Source: Candidatus Dojkabacteria bacterium
GTDB taxonomy: Bacteria; Patescibacteriota; Dojkabacteria; JAHIVN01
Direction: 5' to 3'
DNA: 48,895 bases
Assembly (NCBI GenBank): GCA_016932045.1
Contig: JAFGDO010000019.1
Span: forward strand, 1 to 48,895
Part shown: positions 39,840-43,744 of the stretch, one piece after another
How positions within the stretch are numbered: the stretch's first letter is position 1
How the letters are laid out: each line of letters starts with the position of its first letter
Program-made: the position numbers and the translations under genes
The notes under the pieces: generated by a model
The model's input: only the letters and a program-made list of their open reading frames with translations
What the model was told of the DNA's origin: nothing
The model's database searches: none

Positions 39840-40538
39840 ATGAAAAAAACTCATAAAATACAACTTCATATACTACATAGATTACTATTTTCAGAATCTC
39901 TCAGATATTCACAGATTAAACCGTATGATATGGAAGGAAGTCAATTTAAACATCATATGAATACACTTATGAGTGACAACCTCGTCATAAAAGATAAAAA
40001 AGGTACCTACTTGCTTACATCCAAGGGCAAAGAATATGCGAACAGAATGCACACAAAATCTTCACGTATGAAAGATCAGGCAAAGATAACTACTGTACTC
40101 TGTTGTGTAAATACAAAGAAAAGACCCCATGAATATCTAATCTATACTAGAAAGAAAAATCCGTTCTATGGATGTCAGGGTTTTCCGACTGAAAAAGTAT
40201 GGTTTGGAGAAGCAATATACAACGCGGCATGCAGAGGCCTAAAAGAGGAAACAAGCCTTAAGGGTAAAGGAAATCCTGTGGCAGTAAGACATTACACAGT
40301 GTTTTCGCCCAAAGGAGATCTTCTTGAAGATAAGATAATGTATGTTTTTAAATTTGAAAATCCACAAGGGAAGCTTCAAGGAAATGAAGAGGGAGTTTTT
40401 GAGTGGGTTAAGTCGACCGACCTAAGGAAAAAGATTACACGTCCTCTTGAAGAATTCTGGGAGATTTATGCATTACTAAGTTCTGGAAAAGGACAAATTA
40501 CTTTTAAAGAGCATAAACATATTACTGACAAATTCTAA
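39840..40538 (+). CDS. Nudix hydrolase with N-terminal winged helix
   Basis: The 232-residue protein combines a winged-helix domain (residues 1-70: ILHRLLFSESLRYSQIKP, HHMNTLMSDNLVIKDKKGTYLLTSKGKEYA) with a Nudix domain (80-220). The Nudix box runs GFPTEKVWFGEAIYNAACRG-LKEETSL (114-140). The first Glu of REUxEE is Gly132, while both downstream Glu residues remain. It may sense or hydrolyse a nucleotide and regulate the downstream genes. Its stop overlaps the next start (TAATG), so it heads a coupled operon of nucleobase enzymes. Confidence 0.87.
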   Translation: MKKTHKIQLHILHRLLFSESLRYSQIKPYDMEGSQFKHHMNTLMSDNLVIKDKKGTYLLTSKGKEYANRMHTKSSRMKDQAKITTVLCCVNTKKRPHEYLIYTRKKNPFYGCQGFPTEKVWFGEAIYNAACRGLKEETSLKGKGNPVAVRHYTVFSPKGDLLEDKIMYVFKFENPQGKLQGNEEGVFEWVKSTDLRKKITRPLEEFWEIYALLSSGKGQITFKEHKHITDKF

Positions 40539-41482
40539 TGAGAATAACAATTTGCGGGAGCATTTCATTTTACAAGACAATTAGAAAAGTTGAGCAACGG
40601 CTCAATAAACTTGGTTTTGAAACCTTCATCCCCGTCGGTTTCGGTAAAACATCGCAAGATGATGAGAAGATAAAAGATTCTTTGACTCTCGAAGAAGATG
40701 CACAGCGAAAGATAAATCTTGACCTTATCAATGAGCATCACAGAAAAGTCCAAGAATCCGAAGGAATTTTTATAGTAAATTTGGATAAGAATGGGATGAA
40801 GAACTATATTGGAGGAAATACTTTTTTAGAAATGGGGTTTGCTTTCGTCAACAACAGAGACATCTTTCTTTACAATCCAATTCCCTCAAATTCATATACA
40901 GCTGAAATAAAAGCTATGCGGCCAATGATTATCAATAAGAATCTCAACAAAGTCGTTAAGTATTATAAGAATCTCCCGAAAGTTTATGTATCATCAAAAA
41001 GCACAATCAAAATTAATTCTGTATCTTTTGGCTTAAGGCAATCAGGTTTCAAGGCAAATGTTTTAGGCGTACAGACAAAATCTTCTGTTTCCAATCAACC
41101 TTTAAGCTACAATGAGATTTATGAAGGGGCAATAAATAGATTAAAAAACCTAAAAGAACAGTCAAAAGGGAAATATGAATATCTTGTGTCAATAGAAAGC
41201 GGGCTTGTTTTTATTGACAAGGGAATAGAATATATAGACCTTGGCCTATGCATCATCGAAGATAAAAAAGGACGACAGGAACTTGCTTTATCAGCAGGAA
41301 TTCGGATCCCAAGTGTAATTGCGAAAAAAATAATCGAAACAAAAGACGAACTAGGGCCTTATTTCCAAAGAAAGTATAATTTAAAAGAGAAGGATGCTGC
41401 GTTATATCTAAGTCACGGTAAAGTGAAAAGAGAAGACCTGCTTAAACAGGCTGTTGCATGTGCCTACTCTAACATAAATTAA
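40538..41482 (+). CDS. Nucleoside deoxyribosyltransferase-like / ITPase (DUF84) fusion
   Basis: The 314-residue protein has two domains. Residues 1-140 (ITICGSISFY...NYIGGNTFLEMGFAF, likely catalytic E98) resemble nucleoside 2-deoxyribosyltransferases and DUF4406, which act on N-glycosidic bonds. Residues 148-290 match the DUF84/YjjX inosine-xanthosine triphosphatase family: VYVSSKSTIKINSV, SSVSNQPLSYNEIYEGAINR, EYLVSIESGLVFI and ALSAGIRIPS. That family hydrolyses ITP and XTP. The fusion implies linked removal of non-canonical nucleotides or bases. It overlaps the preceding Nudix gene by one base. Confidence 0.87.
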   Translation: MRITICGSISFYKTIRKVEQRLNKLGFETFIPVGFGKTSQDDEKIKDSLTLEEDAQRKINLDLINEHHRKVQESEGIFIVNLDKNGMKNYIGGNTFLEMGFAFVNNRDIFLYNPIPSNSYTAEIKAMRPMIINKNLNKVVKYYKNLPKVYVSSKSTIKINSVSFGLRQSGFKANVLGVQTKSSVSNQPLSYNEIYEGAINRLKNLKEQSKGKYEYLVSIESGLVFIDKGIEYIDLGLCIIEDKKGRQELALSAGIRIPSVIAKKIIETKDELGPYFQRKYNLKEKDAALYLSHGKVKREDLLKQAVACAYSNIN

Positions 41483-41493
41483 TAATGATAAAT

Positions 41494-41943
41494 ATGAAGA
41501 CAATATGTATCTGCTCAAGCTTTAGATTCTATTATGATTTTTTAGATATAAAGAAAATATTAGAAAAAGAAGGGATAATGTGTTTAATCCCTGAACCTAC
41601 TAGAAAATTTCGAGAAATAAAAGACCCATCGAAATTTAAGAAAGAGTTTGAAAGAATGCCCGAAAAAGAAAGATTGTCTGAAGCAAGAAAAATGACTATT
41701 AAACATTTTAAAAAGATAGACAACGCCGACATAATCTATATTCTAGCTAATGGTGGTTACGTAGGAAAAAGTGTAAGTATGGAAGTCGGATACTCTTTTT
41801 CGAAAGGAAAAACCATATTCTCATCTGAACCTATCGGGGATGTTGCTGTAAGGAGCTTGGTCCAAAACGTCATCAGTAAAGATAAGTTAATACAATATCT
41901 AAAAAATGTTAAACATCCTAAATACAACAAAATACGTAGCTAA
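41494..41943 (+). CDS. Nucleoside 2-deoxyribosyltransferase-like protein
   Basis: The 149-residue protein starts MKTICICSSFRFYYDFLDIK and carries NGGYVGKSVSMEVGYSFSKGKTIF with a likely catalytic Glu (E97). It is a paralogue of the N-terminal domain of the preceding fusion, with the same start (I-C-x-S-x-x-F-Y) and Glu motif. The middle differs (PEPTRKFREIKDPSKF). An upstream ATG at 41485 is possible (MINMKT); 41494 aligns with the paralogue. Its 3' end overlaps the next gene by 38 bp. Confidence 0.82.
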   Translation: MKTICICSSFRFYYDFLDIKKILEKEGIMCLIPEPTRKFREIKDPSKFKKEFERMPEKERLSEARKMTIKHFKKIDNADIIYILANGGYVGKSVSMEVGYSFSKGKTIFSSEPIGDVAVRSLVQNVISKDKLIQYLKNVKHPKYNKIRS

Positions 41944-42868
41944 AAATTCACAGAATGCTTGGATAAACGATGAAGCTATCCAAAATTTTGTTGAAGATAT
42001 CAGGAAGAAAGACCTACTTGTTTCAGAGATAGACATATCCGGCTTTGACTGGAATACTAAAGACCTAATCGCACTTACCTTTATTTTCAATAGCATTAAC
42101 TTCTGTTACTGGGCCAAAAAGGGAAAAGACAAATGGACTGTCGAAATCAATGATGAGGAACTAGATGGTGCCATTGGTCTATTTCAAGTACTAGAAAAAG
42201 AAACAAAAAGAAATCCAAGCTTCATAAATGCAAAACACCTCTCGTCGTTAGGAAATTCAGACTTATCAAGAATTCTAAAAGGTAATACTACAATCCCCTT
42301 GTTTAATGAAAGGCTAAAGTGCCTAAACGAATTCGGTTCAATATTAGCAAAGAAGTTCAGGGGGAATGTAATGGAGATCCTAGTTGATTTTGGCAGAAAA
42401 GATGCTGTAAAGATAACAGAATTACTAGTAAAAAATTTTCCTAGGTTTAATGATTATTCCACATACAAAGGCAAGAAAGTTGCATTCTACAAACGAGCTC
42501 AATGTAACGTGAAGATGGTTAATGATATACTTGAAGCAAAGAGAGAAAAAGGACTCACAAATCTGGACAAAATTACAGCTTTTGCAGATTACAAATTACC
42601 GCAGATCTTAAGAAAGTTAAGAATTTTGAATTATTCAGACAAGCTTGCCAAAGGTATTGATAATTTTGAACTAATAGAAAAAGACTCAGCCATAGAAGTC
42701 GAAATAAGAGCAAATACAATATGGGCCGTAGAGAAAATTAAAAATGCATTAAAGAAGAAATACAATTTTATAACTTCATCTCATATAGACAGTATGCTCT
42801 GGAAAGCTTCACAAACAAAAAATAAAGATGATAAACCATACCACCGTACTCTTACCATTGCTTACTGA
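41906..42868 (+). CDS. Queuosine-5'-phosphate N-glycosylase family protein (QNG1/DUF2419)
   Basis: The 320-residue protein matches the Q-salvage family (DUF2419), known in eukaryotes and some bacteria, which releases the base queuine from queuosine 5'-phosphate. Motifs seen: FNSINFCYWA (61-70), AFYKRAQ (193-199), ITAFADYKLPQILR (223-236), VEIRANTIWAVE (265-276), HIDSMLW (293-299) and HRTLTIAY at the C-terminus. The start lies 38 bp inside the previous gene, so translation is coupled. No tRNA-guanine transglycosylase is in the window. The substrate in this organism is inferred. Confidence 0.9.
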   Translation: MLNILNTTKYVAKNSQNAWINDEAIQNFVEDIRKKDLLVSEIDISGFDWNTKDLIALTFIFNSINFCYWAKKGKDKWTVEINDEELDGAIGLFQVLEKETKRNPSFINAKHLSSLGNSDLSRILKGNTTIPLFNERLKCLNEFGSILAKKFRGNVMEILVDFGRKDAVKITELLVKNFPRFNDYSTYKGKKVAFYKRAQCNVKMVNDILEAKREKGLTNLDKITAFADYKLPQILRKLRILNYSDKLAKGIDNFELIEKDSAIEVEIRANTIWAVEKIKNALKKKYNFITSSHIDSMLWKASQTKNKDDKPYHRTLTIAY

Positions 42869-42886
42869 TGTATCTTGTTCCTTTTA

Positions 42887-42960
42887 TAGTTGAAGGGTAA
42901 ACCTTCGACATTATTGGAAATGTTGTTCTCCATGCTGGTTGAATGTTTAACATTCAACCA
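42887..42960. repeat. Doublet of 24-25-bp palindromes before the glycosylase gene
   Basis: The first (42887-42910) pairs GTTGAAGG with CCTTCGAC around GTAAA. The second (42936-42960) pairs TGGTTGAATGT with ACATTCAACCA (11 perfect pairs) around TTA. They are 25 bp apart, between the DUF2419 stop and the ATG at 42983. This is the same arrangement as the doublet between umuD and umuC. Confidence 0.78.
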
Positions 42961-42982
42961 TAATAGAAAAAATAGAATCGTA

Positions 42983-43744
42983 ATGAATAAAAGTAAAATA
43001 GTTCAAAAATGTCGGAAATTATTAAATGCATATAAAGGGGGAAAGCTCGGTCAGAAAGAAATGCCTGAAGATGCACATCCCTCATTTAAGAACGTTCCAC
43101 TACACCTGCGCATTGCTTTCTTTTCACTTCCAATGGCACTCAACTATCAGAGAAATAGTTATAAATTGTGGGAGGCTGCGGCAAAGACGTTCTTAGACGC
43201 TTCAGCTAAAGATATATTTGAAGTCGAAAGTGCGGCAGAAATGCCAGAACACAAATTGAGATCAAAACTTTTGAAGCATAAATTGGCTTTACAGCCTAAA
43301 AAGCACACAGTTACATGGAAAAGAATTTCAGAAACTATTTTTAGTAATTGGGGGAACTTTACAGAATTATTTAAAGCAGTAGACTATGACTTTCTAAAAC
43401 TGAAAAGCATAGTACAGAGAAAATATAAAAAGGACTTCCCGTATTTATCGGGTCCAAAGATATTCCATTATTGGAGCTTTATCATTGATCAATATGGAGG
43501 AATCCAATTATATAATAAAAAATTTATCGAGATTGCCCCTGACACTCATGTTCTTCAAGCTTCTAAAGTCCTTGGAGTGATTTCCGATCAGGAAATGGGA
43601 AAAATCACCCGTGAAGAAGTATCCAAGCGTTGGAGGATGATTCTTCGAGGAAGCGGGATTGACCCAATTGATATGCACTCTCCTCTATGGTTTTGGAGCA
43701 GAAATGGTTTCAAGTATAACCTCCAGACCAAGATATTTGATTAA
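42983..43744 (+). CDS. HhH-GPD superfamily DNA glycosylase-like protein
   Basis: The 253-residue protein has features of the endonuclease III/OGG1/AGOG superfamily: a helical N-terminus, FPYLSGPKIFHYW (hairpin with Lys159 as a candidate nucleophile), then APDTHVLQASKVLGVI (D187) and PIDMHSPLWFWSRNGF. These enzymes excise damaged or modified bases from DNA. The usual G-V/I-G-x-K/R hairpin appears as L-S-G-P-K, closest to archaeal AGOG-type enzymes. An ATG at 42890 would read through the palindrome doublet, so 42983 is preferred. It lies 114 bp after the DUF2419 gene on the same strand. Confidence 0.72.
   Translation: MNKSKIVQKCRKLLNAYKGGKLGQKEMPEDAHPSFKNVPLHLRIAFFSLPMALNYQRNSYKLWEAAAKTFLDASAKDIFEVESAAEMPEHKLRSKLLKHKLALQPKKHTVTWKRISETIFSNWGNFTELFKAVDYDFLKLKSIVQRKYKKDFPYLSGPKIFHYWSFIIDQYGGIQLYNKKFIEIAPDTHVLQASKVLGVISDQEMGKITREEVSKRWRMILRGSGIDPIDMHSPLWFWSRNGFKYNLQTKIFD

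Follow-up and report, generated by a model that had tools for sequence, protein, structure and literature searches.

A candidate cassette for modified-nucleotide salvage and clean-up, with a Qng1 homologue, in a Patescibacterium near Dojkabacteria

Results and discussion

The window analysed here is the whole 48,895-nucleotide stretch of contig JAFGDO010000019.1 (G000:C26 in our numbering; assembly GCA_016932045.1) of a Patescibacterium near Dojkabacteria, a tiny, probably host-dependent bacterium, whose genome measures 1.46 Mb and is about 95% complete. At positions 39,840 to 43,744 it carries five genes (Table 1), which we interpret with moderate confidence as a cassette that salvages and cleans up modified nucleotides, in which bases would be released by N-glycosidic cleavage and a homologue of the queuosine-5'-phosphate N-glycosidase Qng1 (gene 4) would serve as the queuine-recovering arm. 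The layout described by the first-pass annotation of this DNA, five same-strand genes with the first four tightly packed, agrees with the open reading frame listing of the window.

The product of gene 4 matched the Pfam family Q_salvage (PF10343) over profile positions 8-285 of 285 (E-value 3.6e-68; 230.6 bits vs a cut-off of 25) and aligned end to end with Qng1 of Sphaerobacter (E 7e-51, 176 bits). With the catalytic residues of Qng1 identified from PDB entry titles and mutant sequences, K196 (in FYKRAQ) and D228 (in TAFADYK) of gene 4 correspond to the positions altered in the Sphaerobacter mutants K199C and D231N, and this lysine and aspartate were invariant in 13 QNG1 homologues of Patescibacteria. 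The catalytic residues of the DUF2419 protein, on which the first-pass annotation had made its proposal depend, are retained. Gene 4 resembles the known queuine salvage enzymes (Sphaerobacter thermophilus and eukaryotes; PDB 7u07, 7u5a, 7ulc; PMC11130926) in family, in its catalytic residues and in the presence of tRNA-guanine transglycosylase (TGT) and non-detection of QueA in the genome. It differs in lying within a nucleotide-hydrolase cassette, not beside a transporter, and in being followed by a second, remote Qng1-like protein.

Gene 2 encodes a fusion of two further domains. Its C-terminal half matched NTPase_I-T/DUF84 (PF01931; 1.4e-28, 100.2 bits vs a cut-off of 25), and both gene 2 and gene 3 (E 0.0017) gave weak matches to the nucleoside deoxyribosyltransferase (NDT) family. 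A structure search with the AlphaFold model of gene 2 (predicted local distance difference test score, pLDDT, 93.6) confirmed both folds of the NDT-like/DUF84 fusion named in the first-pass annotation: the DUF84 half has the YjjX fold (Foldseek E 7e-13, TM-score 0.87) and the other half has the NDT fold, matching 6evs and 2a0k with a probability of 1.0 (TM 0.56 and 0.46 by target). The catalytic-type Glu98 of gene 2 aligns with a glutamate invariant in 26 of 26 NDT-like sequences, 20 of which gave an NDT Pfam match at E<=0.05. An aspartate lies 23 residues upstream of the invariant glutamate, replaced by glutamate in gene 2, a pair comparable to the D80/E104 arrangement of DNPH1 (PMC10603095). 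The best PDB sequence match of the NDT profile was a CMP N-glycosidase (E 0.007). These domains share with DNPH1 and the MilB/CMP N-glycosidases (PMC4081090, PDB 4jen) the NDT fold and the invariant glutamate of the G(x)nE-x-G motif, and differ from them in their fusion to DUF84 and their wide occurrence in Patescibacteria and DPANN archaea. Similarly, the DUF84 half resembles the inosine/xanthosine triphosphatases of the YjjX/DUF84 type (PDB 1u5w, 1zwy) in sequence and fold, whereas here its sole occurrence is at the C-terminal end of a fusion with NDT.

The order Nudix, NDT-DUF84 fusion, NDT and QNG1 is kept in two genomes of the same family (G001 and G002) at 36-59% identity, with the overlap of the second NDT gene and QNG1 conserved. 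In G002 two genes are inserted in the block, a further Nudix and a DUF7768 gene (the latter at L012:4919-5308), and a frame change splits QNG1. Frame-split QNG1 genes, attributable to assembly error or decay, were observed in three genomes (L012:6680-7641, L184:1996-2629 and L185:6961-7937). Across the phylum, QNG1 was detected in 18 of 381 sampled genomes (E<=0.001), three of the matches being partial or weak; with the search among relatives added, a clear copy was present in 18 genomes of 14 families. In at least four other families QNG1 has similar company: it stands with NDT-like and Nudix or DUF84 genes, in shuffled order, in families f73, f121 and f30, and with Nudix in f36, the arrangements being NDT-Nudix-QNG1 (G294, L179), Nudix-QNG1 facing Nudix-NDT-NDT (G160, L178), NDT-QNG1 with a divergent DUF84 (G192, L184) and Nudix-QNG1 (G105). 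By a rough estimate that ignores phylogeny and rests on about 0.35-0.5 NDT-like genes per genome, a random gene has an NDT-like gene within three genes some 0.2-0.3% of the time, as against 4 of the 14 QNG1 families. The recurrence of neighbours, which the first-pass annotation had treated as decisive, is borne out for genes 1 to 4 by synteny in G001 and G002 and by related groupings in other families.

Since related cassettes recur in distant relatives, we regard the grouping as real. A chance neighbourhood of unrelated genes would fit the occurrence of the exact five-gene set at this locus only, and is nevertheless barely credible in view of the four-gene synteny in two genomes, the recurrence in four further families, the gene fusions and the overlapping reading frames. 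In a weakly supported tree the QNG1 proteins from such clusters fail to group as a single clade, and the NDT proteins of G160 and G294 are 75% identical while the neighbouring QNG1 proteins share only 43%; the linkage is therefore not one inherited block, and these sequences suggest that the parts of the cassette were assembled on more than one occasion. The first-pass annotation had treated all five genes as one unit. This unit was rejected, as gene 5 was not found beside the conserved block in G001 and G002 and its family occurs mostly in genomes without QNG1.

The enzymes that accompany the NDT-like genes provide the strongest clue to their function. The wider search used the fusion alignment as query; a search of genome contigs with QNG1 alone gave no matches. 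NDT-like proteins, mostly stand-alone and of about 140 residues, were found across Patescibacteria and in several DPANN archaea. The NDT-DUF84 fusion itself was present in L014, L012, the Saccharibacteria locus L083, G272 and G337, and about 78 further Patescibacteria and DPANN loci have an NDT-like gene beside or fused to Nudix, Maf, HAM1, HD, DUF84 or Ppx, including fusions to Nudix (L095) and Ppx/GppA (L084). Nudix genes were enriched next to NDT-like genes (12/154 adjacent vs 3/507 at least five genes away; Fisher P=4e-6), as were HD (9/90 vs 2/90) and Maf (5/90 operon partners vs none listed); HAM1 was as well among the neighbours. These partners are non-homologous phosphate-removing enzymes, several of them known sanitisers of the nucleotide pool. 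The Maf-like gene directly adjoins the NDT-like gene in L110, L112, L123, L145 and L150, overlapping it in several. The fusion at L095:8001-8909 carries a Nudix subfamily with the pattern PPxGFAxxAGHxD ... HYW, which adjoins QNG1 in L179 and L010 and occurs in the NDT operon of L178. A cytidylyltransferase-Nudix fusion resembling bifunctional enzymes of NAD salvage lies directly upstream of the NDT-like gene at L103:7143-7961 and L127:1736-2554.

A narrower explanation is that the locus is a queuine-salvage operon only, in which Nudix, NDT and DUF84 proteins act on queuosine phosphates or are passengers. The fact that the second NDT gene consistently overlaps QNG1 speaks for it, as do the occurrence of one NDT type, that of gene 3, beside QNG1 in families f1, f73 and f121 and the TGT-QNG1 pair described below. 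We nonetheless consider it unlikely, given that NDT-like genes are much commoner in settings that lack QNG1, beside other nucleotide hydrolases, and that DUF84 is a known family of inosine and xanthosine triphosphate (ITP/XTP) phosphatases and not a queuosine enzyme.

The context of queuosine metabolism was examined through TGT, for which the first-pass annotation had suggested a search, and QueA. TGT is present in the genome under study (G000:C20), and no QueA was detected in G000, G001 or G002. Among the 18 QNG1 genomes, 12 have TGT without QueA, two have both and four have neither. Within the TGT-positive genomes of the phylum sample, QueA was found in 2/12 with QNG1 vs 143/305 without it (P=0.035), a deficit that is suggestive only. 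In G120 (L011:7669-8787) a frame-broken TGT gene directly precedes an intact QNG1 and overlaps it by 4 bp; intact TGT genes are present in other genomes. Qng1 together with a queuine-accepting TGT is an established route of queuine salvage (PMC11130926).

Alternatively, the locus may be a general house-cleaning cluster with no tie to TGT, whose QNG1 homologue would be a generic purine or 7-deazapurine nucleotide N-glycosidase acting on compounds other than queuosine. The usual NDT partners are indeed house-cleaning enzymes, gene 5 is evidence of divergence of the Qng1 fold in these genomes, and QNG1 occurs without TGT in four of them. The retention of catalytic residues and the high similarity of gene 4 to Sphaerobacter Qng1, the predominance of TGT without QueA among QNG1 carriers and the TGT gene preceding QNG1 in G120 argue the other way, and we judge this possibility to be somewhat improbable.

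Several observations weigh against a salvage and clean-up cassette with a queuine arm. No TGT was found in four of the 18 QNG1 genomes (G011, G035, G160 and G306), so that Qng1 there cannot feed tRNA modification, and lack of QueA is in any case frequent among the TGT-positive genomes of the phylum (172/317). The pocket motif of the TGT in the studied genome, GGILLKDD, diverges from that of preQ1-type TGT; since the motif is divergent throughout the class, in the TGTs of QueA-bearing relatives as well, it does not identify a queuine user, and the pocket residues are uninformative as to queuine use. Both NDT domains score below the Pfam PF05014 cut-off (13.0 and 18.9 bits vs 28.8), by which they differ from DNPH1 and MilB, and the DUF84 domain scores below the NCBI equivalog cut-off for inosine/xanthosine triphosphatase (TIGR00258; 80.7 vs 117.1 bits). 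The enrichments of HD and Maf are individually modest (P about 0.03). Finally, gene 1 has no intact Nudix box.

The first-pass annotation took gene 1 for a nucleotide-hydrolysing Nudix protein, a role made doubtful by its broken catalytic motif. Although Pfam assigns it to NUDIX (1e-8; HTH_45 was below cut-off), its box reads E-x7-RGLKEETS in place of E-x7-REUxEExG. In all three genomes of the family (G000, G001 and G002) it departs from the signature G-x5-E-x7-REUxEExGU at three points: another residue stands in place of the leading G, RG in place of RE, and S or N in place of the closing G. Winged-helix Nudix homologues with intact boxes were found elsewhere (L210, L209). Nudix-fold regulators of the NrtR/AraR type show the same kind of signature loss (PMC4666351), and on this analogy regulation is a likelier role for gene 1 than hydrolysis. 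Like those regulators it joins an impaired Nudix-like domain to a winged helix at the head of an operon; its domain order is reversed, with the winged helix first. A search for inverted repeats 5' of gene 1 that might act as operator gave AT-rich repeats only, not common to the genomes compared, and scans for promoters and terminators were at background level.

Gene 5 is remotely related to Qng1 and nearer to it than to classical DNA glycosylases. Its model (pLDDT 91.9) has an HhH-GPD-like fold; its Pfam matches to HhH-GPD (0.021; 15.6 vs 26.2 bits) and AGOG (0.0019) are both below cut-off, and its top PDB matches were Qng1 chains (E 1e-3), ahead of MagIII, EndoIII, MutY and OGG1. In profile comparison with QNG1 the probability rose from 65% with 5 sequences to 92% (P=5e-7) with 13, while two control profiles gave P=0.46 and 0.19. 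Asp187 and Trp236 align with D228 and W299 of gene 4. Together with Lys159 they are invariant in the family, Lys159 and Asp187 having been checked in 12 homologues. Homologues of gene 5 adjoin Nudix genes in L203 and L210 (genomes G073 and G010).

Enzymes that deplete nucleotides are present in known defence systems, and the first-pass annotation accordingly offered phage defence as one option. An anti-phage system attacking modified or phage nucleotides would be in keeping with the AbiEii-type gene that QNG1 adjoins in L013 and, by synteny, in L015. It appears highly unlikely, as no phage homologues were found, PADLOC gave weak matches only, metabolic and transporter genes lie on either side of the block, and the domains resemble house-cleaning enzymes rather than toxic effectors. 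At these two loci (L013:7056-8057 and L015:7562-8563), of the TGT-lacking family f4, QNG1 follows genes of 207 and 333 amino acids, the latter being the AbiEii-type nucleotidyltransferase in L013.

Table 1. Genes of the locus, with positions in the window
Gene	Position	Strand	Length	Assignment
1	39840..40538	+	232 aa	Winged-helix and Nudix-like; probable ligand-sensing regulator (Pfam and motif check)
2	40538..41482	+	314 aa	NDT-like putative N-glycosidase domain (residues 1-~145) fused to DUF84/YjjX-like NTPase domain (~146-314)
3	41485..41943	+	152 aa	Second NDT-like protein, QNG1-accompanying type; GYVGxSxxMExGYS motif
4	41906..42868	+	320 aa	QNG1/DUF2419 queuosine-5'-phosphate N-glycosidase homologue; K196, D228 and W299 retained
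5	42983..43744	+		HhH-fold, remotely Qng1-like putative N-glycosidase; accessory, outside the conserved block

Genes 1 and 2 overlap by 1 bp, genes 2 and 3 are separated by 2 bp (11 bp if the second ATG of gene 3 is used), and genes 3 and 4 overlap by 38 bp. The frame of gene 5 has a TTG start at 42890 and its first ATG at 42983; the ATG was chosen because it fits the homologues, leaving a gap of 114 bp after gene 4, as annotated earlier.

Proposed function

We infer the activities, substrates and regulatory role of the cassette from the observed gene order, families, folds, catalytic-type residues, linkage, TGT presence and QueA non-detection. In a bacterium probably living on scavenged nucleic acid, Qng1 would hydrolyse the queuosine-5'-monophosphate left by tRNA degradation and so yield queuine, for insertion into tRNA by the TGT of the cell. 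The DUF84 half of the fusion may take phosphate off non-canonical purine triphosphates (ITP/XTP-like), and both its NDT-like half and the product of gene 3 would release the base from the non-canonical (deoxy)nucleotides so formed, by a glutamate-nucleophile mechanism as in DNPH1 and MilB. Gene 5 may remove a further modified base, and gene 1 may sense a nucleotide ligand and regulate the block. Salvage or removal of a modified purine and cleaning of the nucleotide pool, as first suggested, gain support from catalytic residues, folds and recurrence; phage defence does not. The family assignments made earlier stand by Pfam and fold, save for the degenerate Nudix box of gene 1 and the closeness of gene 5 to Qng1.

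Each part of the cassette is of a known kind. The recurrent cassette, the NDT-DUF84 fusion and the Qng1-like family of gene 5 look undescribed in the literature searched, which excluded most subscription papers and in which no paper linking NDT proteins to Patescibacteria was found; the one paper found that joins the Candidate Phyla Radiation (CPR) with queuosine concerns DPANN archaea and makes no mention of NDT or Nudix proteins.

Uptake of DNA is believed to supply CPR bacteria with nucleotides (PMC9166423), and what becomes of modified nucleotides once RNA is turned over has been called largely unknown (2026 paper, PMC13010358); against this background the cassette has a plausible purpose. 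For organisms believed to draw their nucleotides from foreign nucleic acid, modified nucleotides would be an acute problem. More tentatively, Patescibacteria and some DPANN archaea may possess an undescribed modular pathway for modified nucleotides from scavenged RNA and DNA, which pairs a phosphate remover (Nudix, Maf, HAM1, DUF84 or HD) with an NDT-like N-glycosidase, Qng1 and its Qng1-like paralogue being specialised arms that recover 7-deazapurine bases. The cassette offers concrete, purifiable candidates that pair phosphate-removing with base-releasing enzymes, Qng1 included, and would set queuine salvage in Patescibacteria within a broader clean-up system.

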